A DNA stretch of 21,959 bases. Source: a virus. Below, one piece after another: positions 2,653 through 18,490 of this stretch. Below the pieces are notes generated by a model. It was not told the DNA's origin and did not search any database. It saw only the letters and a list, made by a program, of their open reading frames with translations. The stretch is taken from IMG/VR virus record IMGVR_UViG_3300034022_001308, positions 1-21,959 of that record; one strand, written 5' to 3'. A program made the position numbers and the translations under genes. Position 1 is the first letter of the stretch. Each line of letters opens with the position of its first letter.

Positions 2653-4422
2653 ATGTCGAATTTAACAAGAGAACAAGTATTAATAGAATACGTAAAATGT
2701 AATAGAGATGTTGAATACGCACTTAAAACGTATTTAGAAACATATGATAATACGGTTAAAAAATATGTTCCATTGGAACTTTTCCCTGACCAATTAGCAT
2801 TACTCAACGATTACGAAGAATACAATGAGAATATAGCATTAAAGTACAGACAGGCCGGGGTATCAACAGTTACCGCGGCTTGGATGTCACGTAAACTTAT
2901 ATTTGCAAGAAAAGACGCTCCCGAGAAAATATTGATTATTGCCAACAAGTTGGATACATCATTGGAGATGGCGAACAAAATAAAAGCGTTCGTTGGTCAA
3001 TGGCCGTCTTGGACCGGTGTTGAATTTGATAAAGCCAAAAATTCCCAAAAACATTATAAATTAACAAATGGATGTGAGGTTAAAGCCGTTGCAACATCTA
3101 AGGATGCCTTGCGTGGATTTACACCAACCATACTTGTATTTGATGAGGCGGCCTTTATCGAGGCCGATAGTGATTTCTGGTCTGCCTGTATGGCGTCCCT
3201 ATCTACGGGGGGTAAAGTAATTGTGGTATCAACACCCAATGGTTACGACCAAATTTATTATGAAATATATGACCAAGCATTACGTAATATGAACGACTTC
3301 AAAATTACGGAGATGTTTTGGTATAGAGACCCAAGATACACTAGTGATTTATTTTTAGTTAAAACAAACGATATCATTCATTATCTTTTAAATAAAGAAG
3401 ATTATAAATCAGATGAATTTATTGATTGGTCAAAAATACCTTATAAAGATAGAAACTATGTAGAATTAAGAGTTCTTATGGATGCCGGTTACAAACCTTG
3501 TTCTTCTTGGTTTGAAGCGATGGTTAAGAAATTAAAATACGATAAACGTAAAGTATCTCAGGAGTTAGAATGTAACTTCTTAGGTTCCGGAGATAACGTA
3601 TTTGATTCTCTTATGATGCAAGATATTCGTGAAAATCAAGTGAAAGAACCTGTTAGTAAAATGATGGGTAATGCTCTTTGGATTTGGAAAGAACCCGTTG
3701 TTGGACATAAATACATTATGGGTGTCGACGTTTCTCGTGGAGATTCAGAAGATTTTAGTTCATTTCAAATTGTCGACTTCGATACAATGGAACAAGTTGC
3801 CGAATTTGTCGGTAAATTACCACCTGACACTATGGCAGAAATTTGCCATAAATGGGCGACAATATATTCTTGTTTCATTGTAATTGATATTACCGGTGGA
3901 ATGGGGGTATCAACATCAAGAAAACTACAAGAAATGAATTATCGTGATTTATATGTTGATGGTGTTGATTTATCTAATAAATGGAAATACGACCCAGCTG
4001 CGGCTGATAAAATTCCCGGAATAAATTTTAATAATAAAAGGGTTCAAATTATTGCGTCATTTGAAGAGGCGATGAGACATAAATTCAGAATTTATAGTTC
4101 TCGTTTATATAATGAAATGAACACCTTTGTATATATCAATGGTCGACCTGACCACCAAAAAGGACATCACGACGATTTAATTATGTCAATCGCGATGGCC
4201 ACTTACGTTGCGGAATCTTCATTTAGTAAATTAACAAAGGTTACAGAACATACTAAAGCAATGTTAGATTCTTGGTCTGTTAATAATAATGAGGCTATTA
4301 AAGAAAGTATTAATTTTGACCCTGTGATACCTATGTATCAAAATAGGGTTAACCAATTTAATGGTCAACAAGTCAGTAAAGACGATTATGCAAAATATGG
4401 CTGGTTATTTGGAGTTAGGTAA
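2653..4422 (+). CDS. terL: Terminase large subunit, T4 gp17-like
   Basis: This is the ATP-driven DNA packaging motor and headful nuclease that docks on the portal. The 589 residues are close to the ~610 of T4 gp17. ATPase motifs: deviant Walker A KYRQAGVSTVT (residues ~64-74), Walker B ILVFDEA (160-166, with D164 and presumed catalytic E165), and coupling motif STPNG (193-197). The C-terminal RNase H-like nuclease is marked by GVDVSRGDSEDFS (D359), IVIDITGGMGV (D412) and GHHDDLIMS (D507/D508), the expected acidic metal-binding triad. The usual P-loop Lys just before Ser/Thr is Val here; other terminases of the K-x-R-Q-x-G-x-S-T type also lack it. The gene begins 21 bases after the previous stop with no Shine-Dalgarno. 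Confidence 0.97.
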   Translation: MSNLTREQVLIEYVKCNRDVEYALKTYLETYDNTVKKYVPLELFPDQLALLNDYEEYNENIALKYRQAGVSTVTAAWMSRKLIFARKDAPEKILIIANKLDTSLEMANKIKAFVGQWPSWTGVEFDKAKNSQKHYKLTNGCEVKAVATSKDALRGFTPTILVFDEAAFIEADSDFWSACMASLSTGGKVIVVSTPNGYDQIYYEIYDQALRNMNDFKITEMFWYRDPRYTSDLFLVKTNDIIHYLLNKEDYKSDEFIDWSKIPYKDRNYVELRVLMDAGYKPCSSWFEAMVKKLKYDKRKVSQELECNFLGSGDNVFDSLMMQDIRENQVKEPVSKMMGNALWIWKEPVVGHKYIMGVDVSRGDSEDFSSFQIVDFDTMEQVAEFVGKLPPDTMAEICHKWATIYSCFIVIDITGGMGVSTSRKLQEMNYRDLYVDGVDLSNKWKYDPAAADKIPGINFNNKRVQIIASFEEAMRHKFRIYSSRLYNEMNTFVYINGRPDHQKGHHDDLIMSIAMATYVAESSFSKLTKVTEHTKAMLDSWSVNNNEAIKESINFDPVIPMYQNRVNQFNGQQVSKDDYAKYGWLFGVR

Positions 4423-4442: not shown

Positions 4443-6476
4443 ATGGGTTTAACGGAAAGAAAAAAGTCAGGTAGGATATTTGACGGGTCATTACTTAATG
4501 TTCCGGGCCAAGGAATATTGACCAAAAAAATTCAATCTTCATTTACAAAAAATTTACCTTATCAATCTGATATTAATGGGGGAGTACCTCCGTTACCTAC
4601 ACCGTCTATTACACCATCGTCAACTCCATTATTACCTTGTGACTTTACTGGTGTAGATATTACTACACAGACACCTACACCAACACCGTCAAATACTCCT
4701 ACACCAACTATTACGCCAAGTACAACACCATTAAACTGTGATTTCACATATGTTATTGGTTCTATTACAAATACCCCAACACCTACAAATACGGTAACAC
4801 CAACAAATACTCCAACAAATACGGTAACACCAACACAAACACCAACAAATACTCCAACAAATACGGTAACACCAACATATACTCCAACTCCAACGGTTAC
4901 ACCTGCGGAATGTAGCATTTCATTAGATAATGTTGTATTAATCTCAGGAACAACTTGGGCTTATTACTTTAATAATTTACCAGCAAATTGTGAACAATTA
5001 TTCTTATCATATTCGTTAGATAATGATAATTGGACTTCAATTGAAGTTAATGATTGTTATACAAATCCAGCCTTATATGATATCGGTCCACTTGGTGATG
5101 TTTTAATTTATTTTAGAATAACTCAAGAATGTGGTGGATATCCAACAACATCAAATGTTTTCACTAGTTGTACTAATTGTGGTTATTATGAATTAAGTGG
5201 AACTTATTTCCCTGTATTTGGGTCGTACTCTACTTTTGAATATATCCCTTGTGATGGAAGTAGTCCAGTCACAGTTAATGTTGATAATAGTTATCTTCCA
5301 TTTATCCCACCACCTGTAGTAAATGTTTGTGCCAAATGTTCTTATGGTGTGGTAAAACTAATAGGTAAAGGTTCTTATACTTTAATAACAAATATTTGCC
5401 CAAGTCCTACACCAACACCAACTCCAACTCTTACCCCAACACCTACAGTTACATTAACACCAACATTAACAAATACCCCAACTGAGACCCCAACAAATAC
5501 ACCAACTGAGACTCCAACAAATACACCAACTAATACTCCAACACCTACACCAACTAATACATTAACACCAACATTAACACCAACAAATACTGAAACTCCA
5601 ACAAATACACCAACTAATACTGAAACTCCAACAAATACACCAACTAATACATTAACGTCAACACCAACATTAACACCAACTAATACATTAACACCAACAC
5701 CGACAATGACGCCAACACCAACAAATCCATATGCACCGGGTAATAATGTATTTGTCGATAATTTTACTAGAGCCGCGGTTAGTCCGGGTGGTACTCCATC
5801 AATTGCATACACATCTACAATAACAAATCTTGGTAATATTGGTATTGGTGCGGGAATTTTCCTAAGAATGAGGTCGGACACTACTCTCACAACAGGTAGA
5901 CTTTATACTATGTCAACGTATACTTTAGTCGGTAATCCTAATTTCTATTCTCAATTAAATTTAAACCCAACAATTGTTAATTGGTCTGTGAATGTAAGGA
6001 ATAATTACAACGCAATTTTAGATGGGTTTGATTCAGGTCTTTTTGGTCAAGCAGTTATTTTAGCATCAAATGGTAGTGACGTATTGACTAATGGTAATGG
6101 ATACGCATTAGTTTATGGTGGTTCAGGAACTAGACAGTGGAGATTAGTTAGTTTCACAGGAGGATTACAAGCAAACGCTAATATAACAACAATTTTATCA
6201 ACACCATTGTCACCAGGATTTTCGGATACGGATTATTTAAGCTTAAAAGTGTCTTACAATTCAACAACAAATAATTGGACTTTATCTTTTAGAAATGATG
6301 GTAATTCTGATTGGATAGATTCTAGATTAACAACAGGATATAGTACCCCTAGTTCAGCAACAAATTCAACATATACCAATGTAACATTAGATTCGTTCGG
6401 ATATTTCTATAATTTTGGAGCAACACCAACTTTAGTCAATTCTCTTTTTGACAACTTTAACGTATATTACAATTAA
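4443..6476 (+). CDS. Modular Thr/Pro-stalk protein with LamG-like C-terminus
   Basis: This 677-residue protein is probably a virion adhesin or fibre component; the role is inferred from architecture and position. Residues 1-45 are a basic N-terminus unlike those of the three following proteins. Residues ~75-153 are T-P-T/N-T-P repeats broken by Cys-containing spacers ([19 protein letters not shown]). Residues ~155-251 are a Cys-containing beta module nearly identical to one in the next gene. Residues ~245-320 are a second Cys module ([10 protein letters not shown]). Residues ~320-430 are a long T-P stalk. From ~435 to the end is a beta-rich domain starting VFVDNFTRA with Trp/Gly-rich strands ([11 protein letters not shown]), reminiscent of LamG/concanavalin-type sugar-binding folds. 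There is no signal peptide or membrane segment, fitting a virion protein and not a secreted bacterial one. Confidence 0.85.
4671..4904 (+). repeat. Thr/Pro (PTPT, TNTPT) codon repeats, first block
   Basis: Six-base units of the type ACNCCN, mixed with AAYAC, encode alternating Thr-Pro and Asn-Thr-Pro. The block is interrupted at ~4735-4775 by a short non-repetitive spacer. It encodes an extended stalk joining globular modules. Confidence 0.85.
4895..5195 (+). repeat. Cys-module cassette, copy 1 of 2
   Basis: This ~301-base segment is repeated at 6860-7163 in the next gene with long exact stretches, including synonymous positions, and one 3-base length difference (Gly-Asp-Val versus Ala-Asn-Asp-Ile region). 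It encodes residues ~153-251, from [10 protein letters not shown] to CGYYEL. Confidence 0.9.
5401..5730 (+). repeat. Thr/Pro codon repeats, second block
   Basis: About 330 bases of near-continuous ACNCCN/AAYACN units encode TPT, NTPT and ETPT repeats (residues ~320-430). It contains internal larger repeats such as the [10 protein letters not shown] unit. It links the Cys modules to the LamG-like domain. Confidence 0.88.
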
Positions 6477-6482
6477 TAAAAT

Positions 6483-9359
6483 ATGGGAACAATTATAGAA
6501 ATATTAACAACAAATTACGACGGACAATTATCCGATATTACCTTTTACCCTTGTTCGGGGGGAAGTATTAATATTGGGCAAGTTACCTTACCATATAATT
6601 ACGAAACAGAAGATTACTACGGTACATATGTTATTTATATACCTAATTACGATAAAACTTGTGAATTAGTTGTTCCTTGTTTGTCCCCAACACCAACATT
6701 AACACCAACAAATACGCCAACAAATACACCAACAAATACACCAACAAACACTTTAACTCCAACAAATACCGAAACACCAACAAACACACCAACATATACT
6801 CCAACAAATACGGTAACACCAACGTATACTCCAACACCAACATATACTCCAACACCAACGGTTACTCCTGCGGAATGTAGTATTACGTTAGATAATGTTG
6901 AATTAATCTCAGGAACAACTTGGGCTTACCACTTTACTAATTTACCGGCAAATTGTGAACAATTATTCTTATCATATTCATTAGATAACGATAATTGGAC
7001 TTCAATTGAAGTTAATGATTGTTATACAAACCCAGCCTTATACGATATTGGTCCACTTGCTAACGATATTTTAATTTATTTTAGAATAACTCAAGAATGT
7101 GGTGGATATCCAACAACATCAAATGTGTTCACTAATTGTACTGATTGTGGTTATTATGAATTAGACGGTGGTTTAGGTAACGGAGGTATTTCAACTTTCC
7201 AATACCAACTTTGTAGTGGAGGTGCTCCGGTTACCGTGAATATCCCACAAATAGAAACTATTCCAACAAATAAAGTTTATGTATGTGGTAAATGTTCATA
7301 TGGTATAAATAAATTAACTATATCAGGTAGTTATGAGTTACTTACAAATGTTTGTCCTTGTGATTTAACAGGGGTTGACCTTCCTTCACCTACATTAACA
7401 CCAACAAATACCCCAACACCTACGTATACACCATCACCAACACCAACACCTTTACCTCCATTTATTTCAGTTTGGAGAACAACAACACCATCTGAAAGTA
7501 TTACATTACCATATTTAATTGATGGTACTTATGAAGGTATTATTGATTGGGGTGACGGTAATACATCAGTAAATTCATACGCAAATAGAACACATACATA
7601 TACCTCATCAGGTGACTATACAGTAACAATTACAGGAACTATTAAACGATTTACTTTCGCATCTACATCACAATTTAATTATATTAATAATAGTAAAATT
7701 AGAGAAATACTACAATGGGGTTCGATTAATTTAGGTAGTGACTATAATAATTTTTACAATTGTGTTAATTTAATATTAACAAATGTGACGGATGTTTTAA
7801 ATTTATCTGAAAAACAAACTTTAATATCTTTATTTCATAATTGTAATTCAATAACTACAATTAATAACATCAATAGTTGGGATATATCGAATATTACAGA
7901 TATTAGTAATACGTTTTATAATACTCAATTTAATCAGGACATTAGTGGATGGGATGTTTCAAATGTGAATGTTATGAATTATACATTTTATAGTACACCA
8001 TTTAATCAAGACATTAGTGGGTGGGACGTTTCAAATGTGACTAGTATGTTCGGTATGTTTTGGGATACACCATTTAACCAACCTATAGGTATTTGGAATG
8101 TTTCAGGCGTTACCAATATGGGTAATATGTTTACTAACTCTACGTTATTTAACCAACCGTTATCGGGATGGAATGTGTCTAATGTAACTAATATGTCTCA
8201 AATGTTTGCGGGGACCGCATTCAATAGACCTATTGAAAATTGGGATGTTTCAAAAGTTAGTAATATGTACTATATGTTTAATAACGCTACGTCATTTGAC
8301 CAACCATTATCCGGATGGAATGTAAGTAAAGTGTTTGTTATGCAAAATATGTTTGCGGGAACTCCATTTAACCAACCTATTGGAAATTGGAATGTATCGG
8401 GTGTTACTAATATGGGTTATATGTTTTATAACAATTTAGTATTTGACCAACCATTATCAGGGTGGAACGTATCAAGAGTTCAAAGTATGGCGGGTATGTT
8501 TTATGGTTGTATTCAATTTAATCAAGATATTACTGGTTGGGATGTGTCAAAAGTTGTTGGTATGAGTCAAATGTTTGTTAACACACCATTTAACCAACCT
8601 ATAGGTATTTGGAATGTTTCAGGCGTTACCAATATGGAAAGTATGTTTGTTAATGCTACGTCATTTGACCAACCATTATCAGGATGGAACGTGTCTAATG
8701 TAACTAATATGTCTCAAATGTTTTACAATAGTCCATTTAACCAACCAATTGGAAATTGGGATGTATCAAACGTTACCAATATGGGTTATATGTTTTATAG
8801 TACACCATTTGACCAACCGTTATCAGGATGGAGTACAAGTAATGTTCAATCTATGACCGCTATGTTTTGGTCGTCACCATTTAATCAACCAATTGGAAAT
8901 TGGGATGTTTCAAGTGTTGTTAGTATGAATTTAATGTTTAATGACACACCATTTAACCAACCATTATCCGGATGGAATGTGTCAAATGTTGGTAATATGA
9001 CTAGTATGTTTCAAACAAGCCCATTTAATCAACCAATTGGAAATTGGGATGTTTCAAGTGTTGTTAAAATGGCAAATATGTTTAATAATAATTCATCTTT
9101 TAATCAACCAATCGGAAATTGGGATATATCTAACGTAAATGATTTTACGGGTTTTATGGCGAGTAAAACATCGTTAACATTCTCAACATTAAATTTAGAC
9201 AATATTTACAATGGATGGTCGACCAAAAATCCTCAAATAGGTAGAACAATAACCTTTGGTTCGGCCAAATACACATCAGCAGGTTCTGCTGGAAAATCAA
9301 TCTTAGAAGGAACCGGTAGTGGTGAATATGGTTGGTTTATAACAGATGGAGGAATTTAA
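6483..9359 (+). CDS. Giant modular adhesin with PKD-like domain and BspA-type repeats
   Basis: This 958-residue protein begins six bases after the previous stop. Residues ~1-65 are an N-terminal module shared with the next two proteins ([31 protein letters not shown]). Residues ~69-129 are a T-P stalk. Residues ~130-227 are the Cys cassette shared with the preceding gene, and ~227-300 a second Cys module (CGKCSYG). A short T-P linker leads to a PKD-like domain at ~326-385 with the signature DWGDG (355-359), [15 protein letters not shown]. Residues ~463-896 hold about 18 repeats of 24-25 residues of the form [18 protein letters not shown], the bacterial surface 26-residue/DUF285 (BspA-like) repeat. 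A Gly-rich cap follows ([17 protein letters not shown]). Such repeats are best known from bacterial surface adhesins; here a host- or polysaccharide-binding virion role is inferred. Confidence 0.9.
6687..6869 (+). repeat. Thr/Pro codon repeats in second adhesin
   Basis: Short-period ACACCAACAAAY units encode [10 protein letters not shown] and related repeats between the N-terminal module and the Cys cassette. A smaller block of the same type occurs at ~7387-7456 before the PKD-like domain. Confidence 0.85.
6860..7163 (+). repeat. Cys-module cassette, copy 2 of 2
   Basis: This is the partner of 4895-5195. Copies match over long uninterrupted runs, for example around the [19 protein letters not shown] coding part, while flanking stalk sequences differ. 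That points to recent duplication or gene conversion. Confidence 0.9.
7870..9170 (+). repeat. About 18 DUF285/BspA-like repeats (72-75 bases each)
   Basis: In-frame repeats encode FNQ[PD]I-[GS]-W-[DN]-VS-[NK]-V-x-x-M-x-x-MF. Many neighbouring units alternate between a QPIGNW type and a QPLSGW type, giving a two-unit higher-order period of roughly 147 bases. The array forms a probable elongated solenoid. Confidence 0.92.
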
Positions 9360-9361
9360 AT

Positions 9362-11434
9362 ATGACTAAAAAATTTAGAATATCGACAGATAATTTTGAC
9401 GGATTTACCGCAGATATTACCTATTACCCATATACAGGTGGTACAATAAATTTAGGAACACAAATGTTACCATATGATTATAACACAGATTATTTTTATG
9501 GGATATATGAAGTTTACATACCATATTTTGATAAAATTTGTATTATAGATAATCAACCACCCGTTTGTGATTTAATTGGTAGTTTTACAAGTCCATTTAT
9601 TTCCACTTGGAAAACAGACAATGATGGTGTTAGTTTATCTAACCAAATATTTTTAAATTTAGATTCATCAGGTACTTATAATTTTGTTGTTGACTGGGGT
9701 GATGGTAGTTCTGATAAAATAACTACGTGGGACCAACCTGAAACTACACATACCTACAATGTTATTGGGACTTATGTAATAACAATAACGGGTGTTATTG
9801 AAGGATTTAATTTCAATTATAATGGTGATTATGGTAAAATTTTAAATGTTTTACAATGGGGTTCACTTAAATTAGCGGATGGAGGTTATCAATTTGCATA
9901 TTGTTTTAATTTAAATTTATCTACGGTTAACGATGTTTTAGATATTTCTAACTTAACGTCTATTGACGGGATATTCCAAGAATGTTATTCTTTAACCGCA
10001 GTTAATAATATAGAACAGTGGAACATTTCAAATTTAACAAGTTTAAGTTCATTATTTTCAGATTGTGGAAGTTTTATTCAACCACTGAATGATTGGGATA
10101 TTTCAATGATAACTAATATGAGTTATATATTTAATGGGTGTTACCAATTTAATCAACCATTAAATAATTGGAATGTTTCAGGTGTTACCAATATGAGTAA
10201 TATGTTTCAATCAACCCCATTTAATCAAGACATTAGTGGGTGGGATACCTCAAGTGTTACCAATATGAGTTATATGTTTGCGGGGGCATCATTTAATATA
10301 GATATAACAGGGTGGGATATTTCAAACGTAACAAATATGTCCGGTATGTTTGCAGGGGCAACAGCATTTAATCAACCTATTGGTGTTTGGAATATGTCAG
10401 GTGTTACTAATATATCCACAATGTTCCAATATAATACAGTTTTCACTCAAGATATTACAGGGTGGGATGTATCAAATGTAACGAATATGTCGTATATGTT
10501 TCAAGGTTCAATTTTTAACCAAAACATTACCGGATGGGATGTTTCTAACGTTACTAATATGTCAGGTTTATTTATGAATCCATTTTTTAATCAAGCCATA
10601 GGAATTTGGAATGTATCAGGTGTTACTAATATGTCCTCTATGTTTAATAGTTCAAATTTTAACCAAGACATTAGTGGATGGGATGTTTCTAACGTTACTA
10701 ATATGTCCGCTATGTTTTCTAATTCAAAATTTAATCAAGACATTAGTGGTTGGGATGTTTCAAATGTGAATACTATGAATTTTATGTTTAATAATTCAAA
10801 ATTTAATCAAGACATTAGTGGATGGGATGTTTCAAAAGTTACGTCTATGTCGGGAGTGTTTACATCATCAATATTTAATCAACCCATAGGGATTTGGAAT
10901 GTATCAGGTGTTACCACTATGGGTAGTATGTTTTTTGATTCAGAATTTAATCAAGACATTAGTGGATGGAACGTTTCAAAGGTGACAAATATGAATAGTA
11001 TGTTTAATAGTTCAAAATTTAATCAAGACATTAGTGGGTGGAATGTTTCTAAGGTTATGTTTATGTCTCAAATGTTTAATAATTCAAAATTTAATCAAGA
11101 CATTAGTGGTTGGGATGTTTCTAAGGTTATTAATATGACTTATATGTTTAGTCAGAATCAGTATTTTAAACAAAATATTGGAAATTGGAATATTTCTGGT
11201 GTAACCAATTTCTCTTTCTTTATGGCGAACAAAACTGATACAACATTATTAACCTCAAACTTAGATGATATTTATAATGGATGGTCAACTAAAAACCCTC
11301 AAATAAATATAACAATCCATTTTGGTACTGCAAAATACACGTCAGCAGGTTCTGCAGGAAAAGCAATCCTTACAGGGTCAACCGGTAGTGGAGGATATGG
11401 TTGGACAATATTTGACGGAGGATTATTTACATAA
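9362..11434 (+). CDS. Modular adhesin with PKD-like domain and BspA-type repeats
   Basis: The 690-residue start at 9362 is chosen because the ATG begins two bases after the previous stop and yields an N-terminus aligning with its neighbours; an ATG 30 bases upstream would overlap the preceding gene. Residues ~1-65 are the shared N-terminal module (STDNFDG, DITYYP, GGTINLG, LPYDY, VYIP). Residues ~75-150 are a PKD-like domain with DWGDG at 111-115 and THTYNVIGTYVITITG. Residues ~218-620 hold about 17 surface repeats of the [16 protein letters not shown] type. The C-terminal cap ([22 protein letters not shown]) matches that of the preceding protein. Unlike its neighbours it has no T-P stalk and no Cys cassette. 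It looks like a paralogue made by tandem duplication; a receptor-binding or surface role is inferred. Confidence 0.9.
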   Translation: MTKKFRISTDNFDGFTADITYYPYTGGTINLGTQMLPYDYNTDYFYGIYEVYIPYFDKICIIDNQPPVCDLIGSFTSPFISTWKTDNDGVSLSNQIFLNLDSSGTYNFVVDWGDGSSDKITTWDQPETTHTYNVIGTYVITITGVIEGFNFNYNGDYGKILNVLQWGSLKLADGGYQFAYCFNLNLSTVNDVLDISNLTSIDGIFQECYSLTAVNNIEQWNISNLTSLSSLFSDCGSFIQPLNDWDISMITNMSYIFNGCYQFNQPLNNWNVSGVTNMSNMFQSTPFNQDISGWDTSSVTNMSYMFAGASFNIDITGWDISNVTNMSGMFAGATAFNQPIGVWNMSGVTNISTMFQYNTVFTQDITGWDVSNVTNMSYMFQGSIFNQNITGWDVSNVTNMSGLFMNPFFNQAIGIWNVSGVTNMSSMFNSSNFNQDISGWDVSNVTNMSAMFSNSKFNQDISGWDVSNVNTMNFMFNNSKFNQDISGWDVSKVTSMSGVFTSSIFNQPIGIWNVSGVTTMGSMFFDSEFNQDISGWNVSKVTNMNSMFNSSKFNQDISGWNVSKVMFMSQMFNNSKFNQDISGWDVSKVINMTYMFSQNQYFKQNIGNWNISGVTNFSFFMANKTDTTLLTSNLDDIYNGWSTKNPQINITIHFGTAKYTSAGSAGKAILTGSTGSGGYGWTIFDGGLFT
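10012..11222 (+). repeat. About 17 DUF285/BspA-like repeats (72-75 bases each)
   Basis: The array is dominated by the [16 protein letters not shown] variant, with every few units replaced by [16 protein letters not shown]. Several adjacent units are almost identical in DNA around the segment aatttaatcaagacattagt, suggesting recent unit-level duplication. Confidence 0.92.
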
Positions 11435-11437
11435 CTT

Positions 11438-14260
11438 ATGAAATACGTATTTACAATATCGACAGACAATTACTCCGGATACACCGGAGACGTAACCTAT
11501 TACCCATCAACGGGTGGAACAATTAATATAGGTTTAGTTACATTACCATACGACTATATTACCGATTATTTTTACGGGACGTATGATATATACATTCCTG
11601 AAACAGCGGTTACTTGTACAATAACCAATTTAGAACCGTTACATTTAACCCTTTTTGTTGAGTACACACCTGGTTCTATAATTGTGTTTTATACATTAGT
11701 ATTAAACCGTCCGCATAGTGAAGAAATAAATGTTACTTTTGAAAATGTTTTAAATTTTTATAGTGGTCCTCCGGTTACAATATTTACAGGAGTTACTGTT
11801 AATTCTGGCGATTTATCAGGACAAACTATTATTACAATAGATGAAGATTATATCAACTACACAGGAGTACCATTTTTTAGTCAATTATCGGGAACTCCGG
11901 TTGAAAGTACGTGGGAAATAATTGTTATTCCTTTTATTCCTACATTAACTCCAACACCAACAAATACGGTAACACCAACCTTGACTCCAACAGAAACAGT
12001 TACTCCAACTATTACCCCAACAAATACGGTAACACCTACAAATACGGTAACACTAACTAATACGGCTACCGTAACACCTACAAATACTTTAACACCAACT
12101 AATACGACTACCGTAACGCCTACAAATACTTTGACACCAACTAATACGTCTACCGTAACACCAACAATAACAGTAACACCATCTCCGTTACCTCCAACAA
12201 TTGAATATTTCCAAGATTGTTGTACCCCATTTAATACCTATAAAGTTGGTGGTTTTGTAACACCAATTATATTAGGTAATGTGTATTATATTGATACTGA
12301 CGGATTTAATGGATGTGTTACGGCAGTAAGTGGACCATTATTTGATGCTCAATATAACATCATAAGTTTTACAACAGAAACTAGTTGCCTTAATTGTACA
12401 ACCACTTATCCTTGTATACCTCCATCTCCATCTCCAACAGAGACACTAACACCAACACCAACGTTAACGCCAACAAATACTCCGACAGAGACAGTTACAG
12501 AAACGCCAACTTCAACTCCAACATTAACTCCAACTTTCACACCTACAAATACTCTAACACCAACGTTAACGCCAACAAATACTCCGACAGAGACAGTTAC
12601 AGAAACGCCAACTTTAACTCCAACATTAACTCCAACATTAACACCAACAAATACTTTAACACCAACTAATACGTCTACCGTAACACCAACAATAACAGTA
12701 ACACCAACATTAGGAGCGACAAGTACCCCAACAAATACTCCAACAAGTTCAATTCAAGCAACAGCAACACCAACGTTAACTCCAACAATTACGCCAACAA
12801 ATACTTTAACTCCAACAATTACTCCAACAATTACGCCAACAAGTTCAATTCAGGCAACAGTGACTCCAACATTAACGCCTACAATTACGCCAACAAAATC
12901 AATTCCGGCAACGGCAACACCTACATTAACTCCAACAATTACGCCAACAAGTTCAATTCAGGCAACAGTGACTCCAACATTAACGCCTACAATTACGCCA
13001 ACAAAATCAATTCCGGCAACGGCAACACCTACATTAACACCAACAATTACGCCAACAAAATCAATTCCGGCAACGGCAACACCTACATTAACACCAACAA
13101 TTACACCAACAAAATCAATTCCGGCAACGGCAACACCTACATTAACTCCTACCCCAACAATTACACCAACAAAAACATTAACGCTTACACCTACATTAAC
13201 ACCAACAATTACGCCAACAAAAACATTAACTCCTACCCCTACATTAACACCAACAATTACACCAACAAAAACATTAACTCCTACCCCTACAGTAACACCG
13301 ACTGAATCACCGGTAATAACTTGTGTATGTTATACAGTGACTTATACAGGACCTCCACCACCTCCAACTCTGTATTTTGGTAATACAGATTTCTCATATG
13401 TTAATTGTTCAGGTGTTACAGTGAATACCTCGGTGTTTGAAGATTACCCTGTTGAAATTTGTGCTCAAGTAAACTCTATTATAATAACTGGTGGTGATGA
13501 ACTCGCTGGATGGACCCTATCACCATATAATTGTTGTATACCACCACCAACATTCTATATAATAGGATTGGGATATGGTACAACTCTTAGCCAAGCTTGT
13601 AATACACCAGCCTATGTTGATGTTTGTGTGGATGACCCTAGTTTATGTAGTGCAACATATTTGAAAGGTTCTGATGGTACAAATTGTTATCTAACACCAG
13701 CAACTACAGGGTTTTATAGTAATGGATTTTCCAGAAGATATTGGGACGGTACAACATTATCTTTGTGTCTTGGATGTGGTTGTCTTGTTGCTGACACAGT
13801 AATAACATTATCAGACGGGTCAACTAAATTAATACAAGATGTTCAAGTCAATGATGTTCTTAAATCTATTGATGTATCAGGAATGCCACAACCTGCAGAT
13901 GAGTGGTACTCTTGGAGTAGTGATACCTTAAATTATGTTGATTCAACATCAACAGTAATTGACGTTAAAATATATGAATTTGACTCAGTTGTTAATATTA
14001 ATAATGGTATATTAATTGCTACCGATGCTCATAACCACGTTGTTAAACAAAATGGTATATGGTATATCAGAACAACATCGGAATTAAATGTTGGTGATGT
14101 ATTATTAGATATTGATAATACTGAATTTGAAATTACATCATTAGTTACAATTATAGAACCAACAACGGTATATGATGTTAATGTTAATAATAGTAACCTA
14201 TATTTTGCAAATAATGTGTTAACACATAATAAAGACGAGTTTGTACCATTTGAACCATAA
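11438..14260 (+). CDS. Giant Thr/Pro-stalk protein ending in a Hint (intein-like) domain
   Basis: This 940-residue protein starts three bases after the previous stop. Residues ~1-65 are the shared N-terminal module ([25 protein letters not shown]). Residues ~66-165 are a beta-rich domain of Ig-like or Calx-beta-like appearance (a guess). A T-P stalk covers ~168-250, a Cys module with adjacent cysteines (FQDCCTPFN) ~255-327, and a very long T-P stalk ~328-625 that includes a 54-base minisatellite. Residues ~627-780 are Cys-rich (CVCYTV, YNCCIPP, LCLGCGC). Residues 782-931 form a Hint domain: Cys782 opens block A ([13 protein letters not shown]), TDAH at 862-865 matches the TxxH of block B, and [13 protein letters not shown] then LTHN close it. 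Only nine residues follow. Self-cleavage or ligation is plausible but unproven. Confidence 0.9.
11938..12190 (+). repeat. Thr/Pro/Val codon repeats, first block of fourth adhesin
   Basis: Units encode TPTNTVTPT and [16 protein letters not shown] segment around 12066-12180 ([15 protein letters not shown]) recurs almost verbatim near 12643-12705, showing copying between the two stalk blocks of the same gene. Confidence 0.82.
12421..13308 (+). repeat. Long Thr/Pro stalk-coding repeat
   Basis: Almost 900 bases of T-P repeats. It contains a ~53-base segment repeated at 12459 and 12561 (102-base offset, encoding [17 protein letters not shown]) and the 54-base tandem array annotated separately. The 3' part repeats an [16 protein letters not shown] unit about three times. 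Confidence 0.88.
12821..13145 (+). repeat. 54-base minisatellite, about six copies, with 108-base higher-order unit
   Basis: The anchor tcaattc recurs at 12845, 12899, 12953, 13007, 13061 and 13115, exactly 54 bases apart, encoding 18-residue units [11 protein letters not shown] plus SSIQATV or KSIPATA. The order is SSIQ, KSIP, SSIQ, KSIP, KSIP, KSIP, so a 108-base pair of units and then single units were duplicated. Confidence 0.93.
13781..14230 (+). other. Hint domain coding region (intein-like, non-canonical +1 residue)
   Basis: This encodes residues 782-931 of the preceding protein. Seen: N-terminal Cys782 in [14 protein letters not shown]862-D-A-H865 in the block B position, a [14 protein letters not shown] stretch typical of block F, and terminal His930-Asn931. 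At ~150 residues there is no room for a homing endonuclease. The residue after Asn931 is Lys932, not Cys/Ser/Thr, so standard intein splicing should not occur. Bacterial intein-like (BIL) domains with such +1 residues are known to cleave at their ends and sometimes ligate. The nine-residue tail KDEFVPFEP ends the protein. Confidence 0.88.
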
Positions 14261-14349: not shown

Positions 14350-16242
14350 ATGGAAAATAATAAAAATAACGATTTAACGGTTTGGCAGAGGCTTTCACAA
14401 GCATTCGGGCCAAACTCGTTATTAAATCAAGACTACCCAACATACAAATTAGATAAGAAGGAGTTATTAAAAACTACCTCTAAAGATGAATATGAAAGAG
14501 AGAAATTACAAGCTCAACAAACTTTCTATTTAGCAAATCAATGGACAAAGATTGAAAGTAATCTTTATACCCAAGCCGTGTATTATGAACCAACTCGTTT
14601 GGCATCATTCTATGATTATGAGTCAATGGAGTATACGCCTGAGATATCAGCAGCGTTAGACATATACGCAGAAGAATCTACAACCGTTGATGAAAATGGT
14701 TATATATTACAAATTTATTCAGAATCAAAAAGAATAAAATCTATACTAGCCGATTTATTTAATAACGTGTTAGACGTTGACACCAACTTACCAATGTGGA
14801 CAAGAAATGCTTGTAAATATGGTGATAACTTTGTGTATTTAAAATTAGATTCTGATAAAGGAATTGTTGGTTGTATGCAATTACCAAACATTGAAATAGA
14901 ACGTTTGGAAAGAGGTATGGCCGCAAAATCAGCAAATGTTGAAGAACCGGCAGAAAACAAAGGATTAAGATTCCATTGGAAAGCAAAAAATATGGAGTTC
15001 AACTCTTGGGAGATGGCTCACTTTAGATTATTAGGTGATGATAGAAAACTTCCTTACGGTACTTCTATGTTAGAAAAGGCAAGACGTATTTGGAAACAAT
15101 TATTATTATCTGAAGATGCGATGTTAATTTATAGAACAGCAAGAGCACCTGAAAGACGTGTGTTTAAAGTGTTTGTTGGAAATATGGATGACAAAGATGT
15201 TGAAGCTTACGTACAACGTGTTGCAAACAAATTTAAAAGAGAACAAGTTGTTGATGGTAAAACCGGAAACGTAGATATGAGATTCAACCAAATGGCTGTT
15301 GACCAAGATTACTTTATTCCTGTTCGTGATGCCGCACAAGCATCTCCAATAGAGACATTACCTGGAGCAACAAACTTATCTGAAATAGCCGACATCGAAT
15401 ATATCCAAAAGAAATTATTAACAGCACTTAGAGTACCAAAAGCATTCTTAGGTTTTGAAGACGCTGTTGGTGGAGGAAAAGATTTATCTTTAATGGATAT
15501 TCGTTTTGCAAGAACAATCAATAAGATTCAAAAATCTATGGTTGCAGAATTAAATAAAATTGCAATTATACATTTATTTCTATTAGGGTTTGAGGATGAA
15601 TTATCAAACTTTTCATTATCATTAACTAACCCATCTTCACAAGCTGACTTATTAAAAGTTGACCTTTGGAAAGAAAAAATCGCATTGTACCAACAAGCCG
15701 TAGCGGCAATCGCAGGTATTGCACCGGTATCAGTATCGTGGGCTAAGAAACATATATTAGGATTCTCTGATGAGGAAATCAAACTTGATTTACAACAACA
15801 AAGAATTGAGATGGCAGTCGGCGCTGAGTTAACAAACACAGCAACAATGATTACACATACAGGTTTATTTGATACTATTGATAAATTATACGGAAATAAA
15901 GTTTCCGGAGCAACAGCAGGTGGAGCAGCACCATCATCACCACCCCCACCAGGAGGTGGAGGAGGATTCGGCGGTGGCGGAGACATAGGCGGAGGAATGG
16001 AAGATTTAGGAGCACCTGAACCGGGTGGAGCCCCTGAAGGAGGAGCCCCTGAAGCAGGAGCCCCTGAGGCGGCAGCACCACCGGAAGCTGAACTAACACC
16101 GGAATCATTTAAAAGAGATAATTTAAAAATATTAGTGGAACAAGGTTCCTTAACTGAAGACGATTCTTATATTGATTTATCTAAAGGAAAAAATTCTTTA
16201 GGAGATATTGAAGACCAATTAAGTAAACTTCTAAAAGACTAG
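14350..16242 (+). CDS. 20: Portal vertex protein, T4 gp20-like
   Basis: This forms the dodecameric ring at one capsid vertex that initiates prohead assembly, serves as the DNA channel and docks terminase and neck. The 630 residues exceed T4 gp20 (~524) mainly through a C-terminal extension. Diagnostic segments: EYTPEISAALDIYAEES near residue 97, SWEMAHFRLL with LPYGTSMLEKAR, the family hallmark IYRTARAPERRVF (R265-R270 around the APERR core) followed by VFVGNMDDKDVEAYVQ, and EIADIEYIQKKLLTALRVP. Residues ~518-582 are a low-complexity Gly/Pro/Ala/Glu linker (PSSPPPPGGGG, repeated GGAPE/AGAPE units) noticeably richer in G and C than its surroundings, ending in a short charged helical tail. Starts with no Shine-Dalgarno in an AT-rich leader. 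Confidence 0.97.
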   Translation: MENNKNNDLTVWQRLSQAFGPNSLLNQDYPTYKLDKKELLKTTSKDEYEREKLQAQQTFYLANQWTKIESNLYTQAVYYEPTRLASFYDYESMEYTPEISAALDIYAEESTTVDENGYILQIYSESKRIKSILADLFNNVLDVDTNLPMWTRNACKYGDNFVYLKLDSDKGIVGCMQLPNIEIERLERGMAAKSANVEEPAENKGLRFHWKAKNMEFNSWEMAHFRLLGDDRKLPYGTSMLEKARRIWKQLLLSEDAMLIYRTARAPERRVFKVFVGNMDDKDVEAYVQRVANKFKREQVVDGKTGNVDMRFNQMAVDQDYFIPVRDAAQASPIETLPGATNLSEIADIEYIQKKLLTALRVPKAFLGFEDAVGGGKDLSLMDIRFARTINKIQKSMVAELNKIAIIHLFLLGFEDELSNFSLSLTNPSSQADLLKVDLWKEKIALYQQAVAAIAGIAPVSVSWAKKHILGFSDEEIKLDLQQQRIEMAVGAELTNTATMITHTGLFDTIDKLYGNKVSGATAGGAAPSSPPPPGGGGGFGGGGDIGGGMEDLGAPEPGGAPEGGAPEAGAPEAAAPPEAELTPESFKRDNLKILVEQGSLTEDDSYIDLSKGKNSLGDIEDQLSKLLKD

Positions 16243-17764: not shown

Positions 17765-18490
17765 ATGAAATTAAGAATATTACAACCAAGCGAATCAGGA
17801 AAAGGTATATTAGTTGAGTACGATGCGGGATATATTAATCCAAATGACAATCGTAATGAAAGCTTAATTAGAGAATCTAACGAAATGTTAGACCACTCTA
17901 AACCATTTGAATTTTATGCTGTATTACAAAAATATAATACCCCAAATAGAAATGGTAGAACATACCCTGAACGTATATTAAAAAGAGAGGCCGAGAACTA
18001 TAAAAAAATGATTAAAAAGGGTACCGCCCTATCCGAGTTAAATCACCCGGAATCATCTCTAATCGATTTAGATAGAGTGTCTCACGCAATCACCGAAGTA
18101 TGGTGGGAAGGTAATGTACTAATGGGTAAGATAAAACTTCTTACTTCACCAGGTTACCACGAAAGAGGTATCGTATCAACCAAAGGTGACTTAGCCGCTA
18201 ACTACCTTAGACAAGGTGTTACATTGGGGATATCCTCAAGAGGTGTAGGGTCCCTTAAAAAAATTGGGGAACAAAATGAAGTACAGGATGATTTTGAATT
18301 AATCTGTTTCGACTTAGTATCTTCACCTTCAACTCCGGGAGCGTATCTATTCTTAAATAAAGACGACAAACATCTATATGATGAGAACTTAGAAGAAGAG
18401 AAAAAAATGAGTGTTGAAAGACACGTTGGAGATTCCGGAAATAAATCGCTTGACTTAATGAAAAAATTAAACGATTATTTGGGATACTAA
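17765..18490 (+). CDS. 21: Prohead maturation protease, T4 gp21-like
   Basis: This serine protease is packed inside the prohead; it degrades the scaffold and trims capsid proteins, typically after Ile/Leu-x-Glu. The 241 residues fit the family (T4 gp21 ~212). Motifs in order: FYAVLQKYNTPNRNGRTYP (~50-68), a typical opening of phage prohead proteases; ELNHPESS with candidate catalytic His94; GVTLGISSRGVGS with candidate nucleophile Ser157 or Ser158; and ELICFDLVSSPSTPGA (D183). The ~40 C-terminal residues are charged and probably removed or used for scaffold contact. It lies between an unknown gene and a 69-residue gene, three genes after the portal, matching the T4 order portal-protease-scaffold-capsid. 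Confidence 0.95.
   Translation: MKLRILQPSESGKGILVEYDAGYINPNDNRNESLIRESNEMLDHSKPFEFYAVLQKYNTPNRNGRTYPERILKREAENYKKMIKKGTALSELNHPESSLIDLDRVSHAITEVWWEGNVLMGKIKLLTSPGYHERGIVSTKGDLAANYLRQGVTLGISSRGVGSLKKIGEQNEVQDDFELICFDLVSSPSTPGAYLFLNKDDKHLYDENLEEEKKMSVERHVGDSGNKSLDLMKKLNDYLGY

Follow-up and report, generated by a model that had tools for sequence, protein, structure and literature searches.

A BIL-like Hint domain at the end of a phage stalk adhesin as a candidate self-cleaving module

Results and Discussion

The window, i.e. the whole stretch of DNA analysed here, comprises positions 1-21,959 of the IMG/VR virus record IMGVR_UViG_3300034022_001308 (21,959 bases) and encodes a stalk adhesin with a C-terminal Hint domain, the features of which are collected in Table 1. 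The adhesin gene sits between the terminase and portal genes, and the head genes recognized around it are those of the terminase large subunit (2653-4422), the head maturation protease (17765-18490) and the major head protein (20437 onward). The N-terminal domain of the adhesin matches those of the two upstream DUF285 adhesins (59% over 68 and 53% over 62 residues), and Pfam DUF2510 was matched by eight of 13 aligned Cys-rich domains, the window's own copy giving no match. Among 100 rows retrieved, the portal gene starts at most 140 bases after the His-Asn pair in 84 (21 of 28 distinct sequences) and at a distance of 2.2 kb in two; for 14 none was found in the retrieved DNA. A phage structural setting of the Hint-bearing adhesin is well supported by this gene neighbourhood.

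Table 1. Features of the stalk adhesin gene and of the adjoining portal gene, in positions of the window.
Feature	Positions	Strand	Remarks
Stalk adhesin ORF, 940 aa	11438..14260	+	residues 782-931 are the Hint domain
N-terminal domain, ~68 residues, putative anchor	11438..11641	+	common to two upstream DUF285 adhesins
Thr-Pro-rich block, second and shorter	near 11930-12199	+	bounds by eye; phrog_15511 match
Thr-Pro-rich low-complexity stalk, main block	12431..13312	+	bounds set by eye; phrog_15511 match
Cys-rich domain	13526..13780	+	ends CLGCG just before the predicted cut, Hint directly next
Predicted N-terminal scissile bond Gly781-Cys782	13778..13783	+	Gly781 at 13778, Cys782 at 13781; Hint-less relatives end nearby
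Hint domain, Cys782 to Asn931, 150 residues	13781..14230	+	PDB sequence match, AlphaFold2 model, structure matches
WYSWSS, residues 823-828	13904..13921	+	insert common to most of the phage tail-Hint family
Block B TxxH, Thr862-His865 (TDAH)	14021..14032	+	Thr862 at 14021, His865 at 14030; TxxH in 24/24 distinct family sequences
Block G His930-Asn931	14225..14230	+	His930 at 14225, Asn931 at 14228; HN in 23/23 complete family sequences
+1 Lys932 and rest of the nine-residue tail KDEFVPFEP	14231..14257	+	Lys932 at 14231; single-Lys tail in 19/23 complete relatives
Portal protein gene, directly downstream of the adhesin	14350..16242	+	phrog_213, 1.2e-66

An earlier note on this DNA had read the end of the adhesin as a Hint domain that profile searches would recover. 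This held for comparison with the PDB, where phmmer found the chains of 6y75/6tmm, by title the BIL2 of the Tetrahymena thermophila BUBL1 locus, with matches of about 7e-6 that span the entire domain. It failed at the curated Pfam level, all scores staying under the gathering cut-offs: Intein_splicing with 19.6 of 35.8 bits (8e-4), PT-HINT with 17.4 of 27.7 (0.0056) and Hint with 15.4 of 29.7 (0.015); a search of NCBIfam with the domain gave no match at E 0.01. The AlphaFold2 model of the Hint domain, built on a 52-row alignment, reached a mean pLDDT of 90.6 and a pTM of 0.85, and its best solved match in VIA-align was again 6y75 (Z 20.4, rmsd 1.8 over 139 residues), ahead of 2lwy (Z 18.5) and Hedgehog 1at0 (Z 17.1). 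Foldseek ranked BIL2 of T. thermophila first, then the Clostridium thermocellum BIL 2lwy and the gp41-1 intein, with a best solved TMq of 0.72. BIL, the type that the earlier note had brought up, is the nearest solved type. The catalytic residues that it had named are encoded where it placed them, and alongside the Hint fold the domain shows the block A Cys1 (Cys782) and the block B TxxH (TDAH, 862-865). The usual block F His is missing; by our reading of the alignment its place is taken by Asn920, and Asn stands there across the window family. A Hint domain of BIL-like kind makes up the 150 residues immediately ahead of the tail. Modelling the Cys-rich domain together with the Hint on a 20-row alignment gave a mean pLDDT of 50.5 (Hint below 50, residues 11-80 at about 87-95); no junction geometry was obtained from this model, and its structure comparison yielded nothing above Z 3.6.

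Conservation of the catalytic residues was assessed on two sets. The set least selected on motifs is a 16-row alignment of 14 proteins from 13 named phages with the window and locus L039 (L numbers are our labels for loci), the 14 being chosen from 58 and 66 tblastn records, except that NCTB BN7874_136 was taken by its annotation beside a match. All 16 rows have Cys1, TxxH and the C-terminal His-Asn, with the named-phage domains 22-27% identical to the window's Hint where the tblastn listing gives identity. The residue after Asn (+1) is Thr in ten of these rows, Ala in two (NCTB), Lys in two (the window and L039), and Val and Met in one each, and the tails of the 14 named-phage proteins run to 7-12 residues. 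The second set is the window's own family, in which all 24 distinct domains have Cys1 and TxxH and all 23 complete ones have HNK, one ending at a contig end; the search for this family was not wholly blind, as one of its six peptide patterns holds THNK and one of two others starts at the block B His. Rows from pattern scans were chosen on His-Asn, with a Cys required by the script used, and their invariance is for that reason not used as evidence. In the relative L104, whose portal gene is 89% identical, the adhesin ends early and the Hint is an out-of-frame remnant reading Tyr-Asn in place of His-Asn. This single case (n = 1) illustrates what becomes of a Hint once selection is absent and demonstrates that loss of the domain is possible.

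These data bear on the alternative that the Hint has given up its chemistry and serves as a structural tip or a folding domain. The missing block F His, a related marine lineage lacking the block B His and the toleration of Hint loss among relatives would fit such a role, which we nonetheless hold to be unlikely, given the invariance of Cys1, TxxH and His-Asn in the 16 aligned members, that of HNK in the complete near relatives, and the loss of this His in the sole decayed copy seen.

The earlier note had regarded a self-processing stalk on a virion as unusual. As stated, that view lacks support: phage tail proteins repeatedly carry a Hint domain at the C-terminus, and the records of phages NCTB and Y3 already carry the annotation 'putative phage tail protein, contains intein domain'. 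Sequence comparison groups the window's Hint with a phage tail-protein Hint family that is marked by a W..WSS insert and includes phages NCTB, Y3, Alexandra and others: the similarity extends over the whole domain, the insert is shared, and the Hint is C-terminal here as in every family member examined. It aligns with that of L211 without gaps (31% over 153 residues, 1e-25) and with that of L151 at 31%. When 89 Hint domains were placed in a tree, the 19 rows of the window family (SH-aLRT 99) fell inside a 26-row clade (SH-aLRT 98) that also holds L209, L127, L162, L151, L211, L277 and Dickeya phage AD1. The tree was built without the +1 residue from 89 of 95 rows, six being dropped for doubtful domain bounds; it is a quick search with many open forks in which L044 and L277 form long branches that meet, and it includes pattern-scan rows. 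Because Lys-selected bacterial rows are mixed in, neither the tree nor Lys counts made with such rows were used for the frequency of Lys. Across nine aligned domains (six phage Hints of the clade, two of NCTB and that of AD1) the tails after His-Asn measure 1-21 residues, and a W..W[ST][ST] insert between blocks A and B is common to most of them. PHROG 38766, 'virion structural protein', was matched by L151 (2.9e-11), L127 (7.5e-10), L209 (1.4e-4) and L277 (0.0084), and weakly by the window's Hint (E 0.018).

In addition, the three viral structure models nearest to the window's Hint (TMq 0.84-0.92, rmsd 1.3-1.5) correspond in protein length to NCTB BN7874_136, _132 and _135 (506, 1304 and 153 residues). 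Neighbouring genes within the clade include the central tail fibre J before L211 and terminase and portal beside L151 and L209. Relative to the C-terminal Hints of NCTB BN7874_132/_136, Erwinia phage Y3_110 and the Alexandravirus relatives (PHROG 38766), which have the same insert and a short tail, the window differs in its carrier, theirs being collagen-like or other tail proteins, in the +1 residue (Thr, Val, Met or Ala in theirs) and in the low identity given above. No relative of the standalone NCTB protein was found in the viral contigs searched, nor any bacterial relative when bacterial genome contigs were scanned with the window-family alignment.

Relatives that lack the Hint were found in two stalk architectures. 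The pre-Hint part of AD1_108 matched 57 records of the phage collection, of which five further ones were inspected: those of Erwinia phages SNUABM_7, _13 and _25 have the Hint and those of Dickeya phages JA29 and JA13 do not. The latter two proteins, JA29_099 and JA13_097 (324 residues), are about 50% identical to AD1_108 over 322 residues and end ITARNPK where AD1 reads ARNPTSSTSG (VVARNPTSSTSG) followed by Cys329, which sets their stop some six residues before Cys1; two tail-fibre genes of similar size are annotated downstream in both phages. The Cys-rich domain of the window family was found at 43 loci of IMG/VR, 39 of which continue into a Hint (one ending at the contig end), the other four representing two distinct proteins that have none. 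The first has the C-terminus FTDPCYSCGAY and so extends by two residues beyond the CxxCG found ahead of Cys1 in Hint-bearing forms; the second, with the C-terminus FTLSGSCY, stops in nearly the same place and has no CxxC. The homology of these four loci (L336-L339) rests on a short domain, with tblastn values of 2e-5 to 8e-5 against candidates only and hmmsearch E-values computed on a set of four sequences. A search for a Hint elsewhere in the four Hint-less contigs gave none; it was run without a positive control on records that are possibly fragments.

In two unrelated stalk architectures, then, the pre-Hint part is able to stand as a complete protein. The ends of these proteins fit release by cleavage, and they also fit the gain of a domain at an old stop codon or its loss with a return to that codon; as a C-terminal domain added at such a codon leaves the same Hint-less ends, it is modularity that they demonstrate and not cutting. 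A redox trap formed by the CxxC before Cys782, an idea that reportedly stems from an intein study, was considered and dropped because the Hint-less L338 still has the CxxC.

Our computations establish the fold, the catalytic residues and their conservation, the C-terminal position and the ends of Hint-less relatives near the predicted cut. By analogy with BILs, we consider it probable, at roughly 0.62, that self-cleavage is the function in use and that the domain is a BIL-like C-terminal module on a phage stalk. Cys782 would attack the Gly781 carbonyl to give a thioester, as expected from BIL and intein chemistry (PMC4031507, PMC7664689); its resolution by water or an amine would free the stalk with Gly781 as its end, and cyclisation of Asn931 would release the Lys932-led tail, which measures one to nine residues in the family. 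The Hint would then be a self-removing cap, discarded or only non-covalently bound after assembly, in a role like that of the S74 chaperone domains. The Peptidase_S74 fold differs from the Hint fold, and the catalytic residues of S74 are Ser and Lys, unlike those of a Hint; the fibre of L197 carries an S74 domain as well as a Hint. The Peptidase_S74 intramolecular chaperone is a self-detaching tail-fibre module (PMC7824862), and the likeness is one of role only. What speaks against self-cleavage is the Asn in place of the block F His throughout the window family, the missed Pfam cut-offs and the toleration of Hint loss in several phages (JA29/JA13, the Hint-less IMG/VR forms and L104).

Experiments have shown cleavage, and in some cases splicing, by type A BILs (PMC4031507, PMC7664689). 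The window's domain has the C-terminal His-Asn with no nucleophile at +1 by which these sources define the type, and it shares the fold, Cys1 and the C-terminal Asn with the C. thermocellum BIL 2lwy and with BIL2 of T. thermophila, which is likened here by structure. The window's Hint differs in its place at the very end of a structural protein of a phage, where Asn is followed by 1-9 residues in the family, in the additional W..WSS insert and in the +1 Lys of all complete members seen. Furthermore, type A BILs are described as residing in hypervariable regions of non-conserved bacterial proteins (PMC7765530), and the carrier of the window's Hint is a phage protein with a variable stalk. Judged by its residues, this Hint should work like a type A BIL within the phage tail-protein Hint family.

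The Hedgehog autoprocessing domain (1at0) has the same fold and N-terminal thioester chemistry and is also a C-terminal module; in Hog the Hint is followed by a sterol-recognition region (PMC7765530), whereas the window's protein ends nine residues past Asn931 and keeps the C-terminal Asn. Hint thioesters can be passed to external nucleophiles, as to cholesterol in Hedgehog (PMC7664689, PMC7765530), and in an adhesin of Cys-rich and Thr-Pro-rich architecture an amine on the host surface or on a different virion protein might capture the thioester, so that the Hint would attach the stalk covalently. We regard this as very unlikely, and the present data do not set attachment apart from hydrolysis.

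The earlier note had also described a Lys at +1 and a tiny C-extein, which agrees with the nine residues (counting Lys932) of the tail. This length is a minority form in the window's own family, in which 19 of 23 complete domains end exactly HNK and four carry 7-9 residues after Asn. A block G pattern blind to the +1 residue returned at least 120 matches in IMG/VR, and among the matches listed Cys occurs 83 times, Lys 20, Ser 5, Thr, Arg and Ala twice each and Val, Leu, Gln, Phe and Gly once each, with one artefact. When the listed matches were merged by similarity of their ends, rows with fewer than 40 residues before the site being dropped, 68 clusters remained, seven of them with Lys, the largest group without Cys. 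A pattern of HN, any residue and stop, applied with the window family excluded, found six stretches, all with Lys, and its repetition gave the same six. A wider residue-blind form of this pattern yielded 28 viral stretches with 29 matches and 24 distinct ends (a few shortened by the locus edge), and the single residue was Lys in 29 of 29. By eye these comprise about five families dominated by a marine one, so the 29 do not represent 29 events.

The marine HNK family shows TxxQ at block B together with Pro at -1, features of 16 and 15, respectively, of the 22 long sequences of this survey; the N-terminal step may therefore be missing from at least one lineage. The W insert is present in the four members inspected. 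The bulk of this family was found later and stands outside the tree, in which the tail-Hint clade takes in the window family and L277, and L276, L280, L278, L281 and L131 group at weak support among tandem Hints and Bacteroidota proteins. Both Lys codons occur at +1. A second bacterial scan, which required Lys at +1, returned 38 stretches, 12 ending exactly HNK and four with one extra residue; on account of that requirement it is uninformative on the frequency of Lys. A residue-blind pattern run over 395 genomes of one phylum gave two matches, both with Ser, too rare to use.

These sequences lead us to conclude that, where Asn is followed by a lone residue, strong constraint keeps this residue Lys. 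A mere leaving group could be any residue, so the constancy of Lys makes a case for an active role; its strictness in single-residue tails suggests that the side chain matters. After cyclisation of Asn931, the freed alpha (or epsilon) amine of the Lys fragment might take the thioester, leaving a stalk that ends Gly-Lys or an alternative. Such ligation is the splicing route proposed for type A BILs (PMC4031507), and a role of the side chain is suggested by the Lys of all 29 single-residue tails and by the occurrence of both Lys codons. We nevertheless judge it rather unlikely, as tested BILs yield mostly cleavage products according to the same source, sister lineages carry T, V, M, A, Q or F at +1, the tandem Hints L131 and L166 carry Arg, and Lys is retained in the marine family where the block B His is gone. 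The Arg of the tandem Hints, the other +1 residues in longer tails and the Lys kept without that His also argue against a simple nucleophile role of Lys. More speculatively, HNK-ending Hints might form a distinct mechanistic class in which the side chain of the terminal Lys resolves the thioester to give an isopeptide-joined stalk, in effect splicing onto a single residue, with a branched or lariat fibre, or after Asn cyclisation a Lys-capped stalk, as the product; this joint proposal appears distinctly unlikely to us.

Canonical splicing, already doubted in the earlier note, is indeed unlikely, because Lys932 provides no Cys, Ser or Thr nucleophile at +1. Class 1 inteins such as gp41-1 (6qaz) and Ssp DnaB (1mi8) resemble the window's Hint in fold and in blocks A, B and G; they differ from it in the +1 Cys, Ser or Thr and in the host protein that continues after the domain, where the window has Lys, as have all 23 complete relatives, and a C-extein of nine residues (one residue in 19 of the 23). 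A mini-intein or intein remnant, mobile or once mobile, parked at the gene end would account for the Hint fold, and inteins with +1 Cys are common in viral genes, as the 83 Cys in the block G survey (among the matches listed) indicate. We consider this origin most improbable: 150 residues leave no space for an endonuclease domain, there is no real C-extein and no +1 nucleophile, and the domain belongs to a clade of its own with an insert and keeps a steady place before the portal gene.

Conclusions

The Hint superfamily, BILs and Hint domains in phages are already known, as is the annotation for NCTB and Y3. Our literature search, covering open-licence papers, found no study of C-terminal Hints of phage tail proteins, of their Hint-less relatives or of a terminal or +1 Lys. 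If self-cleavage is indeed the function of the window's domain, phages would use intein-type chemistry as a self-removing tail or adhesin module and not as a parasite, in parallel to the S74 chaperones. Two predictions would follow, namely the position of the mature fibre end, as marked by the Hint-less relatives, and an importance of the +1 side chain, as suggested by the strict single Lys. Moreover, an autoprocessing domain that naturally ends in one Lys would be of interest for protein engineers.

Hint domains in related phage and cellular proteins

Hint domains with Lys directly after the terminal Asn (position +1) lie at or close to the C-terminus of proteins of L206, L219 and L278; by profile, these proteins match families of tail proteins or of the baseplate hub (phrog_2048, phrog_196). 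On the tail fibre of L197 an internal Hint domain with Lys at +1 is combined with a C-terminal Peptidase_S74 chaperone. Phage NCTB encodes a standalone Hint-like protein whose neighbour, a tail protein, has a complete Hint domain. The start of the standalone protein appears, by eye, to lie downstream of block A with no Cys1 seen, and it nevertheless ends in HNKVD.

Coordinates of Hint-bearing and neighbouring features
Sequence	Position	Strand	Feature
L206	2141-3271	-	Hint, tail or baseplate hub match
L219	4020-5114		Hint, tail or baseplate hub match
L278	181-1128		Hint, tail or baseplate hub match
L197	58-1497		Tail fibre
L105 (phage NCTB)	698-1159	-	BN7874_135, standalone, 153 aa
L131	4241-6976		Triple Hint array
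L104	900-1180		Decayed copy
Window	4443-11434		Three large adhesin-like ORFs

Three successive Hint domains separated by two-residue linkers (HN-RA-C and HN-KF-C) were found in L131 and L166, both from IMG/VR, and the final domain of the array ends in HNK, that is, His-Asn-Lys right before the stop. Lys at +1 was also observed in further tandem Hints (L128, L140, L172, L190, L193, L202, L216). In the scan of bacterial and archaeal contigs, which selected on Lys, the Hint end was exactly HNK before the stop in 12 of 38, ten of these on contigs titled as Bacteroidota groups. The HNK-ending proteins of L276, L280, L131, L354 and L355 share the N-terminus M[KQ]GT.FS.D...IN/LNTDT, which we take to resemble ATP-grasp-type ligases; in L276, L280 and L131 this N-terminal part gave no family match. 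A marine-type IMG/VR family (L341, L342, L343, L353 and kin) has Phe/Pro-rich stalks leading into FGPP-Cys Hint domains with Pro at -1, a W insert, TxxQ rather than TxxH in block B and an HNK end.

In L104 the adhesin is truncated and the Hint end is reduced to an out-of-frame remnant directly ahead of the portal gene. The window's adhesin-like ORFs are flanked by the terminase and the Hint-bearing gene, and two of the three carry DUF285 repeats and sub-threshold PKD matches. To our knowledge, adhesins placed between terminase and portal represent an unusual gene order.

The Pfam AXH model scores above cut-off on the phage Hint domains of L120, L131, L197, L206, L219, L278, L280 and L281, and automatic annotation may therefore label them AXH.
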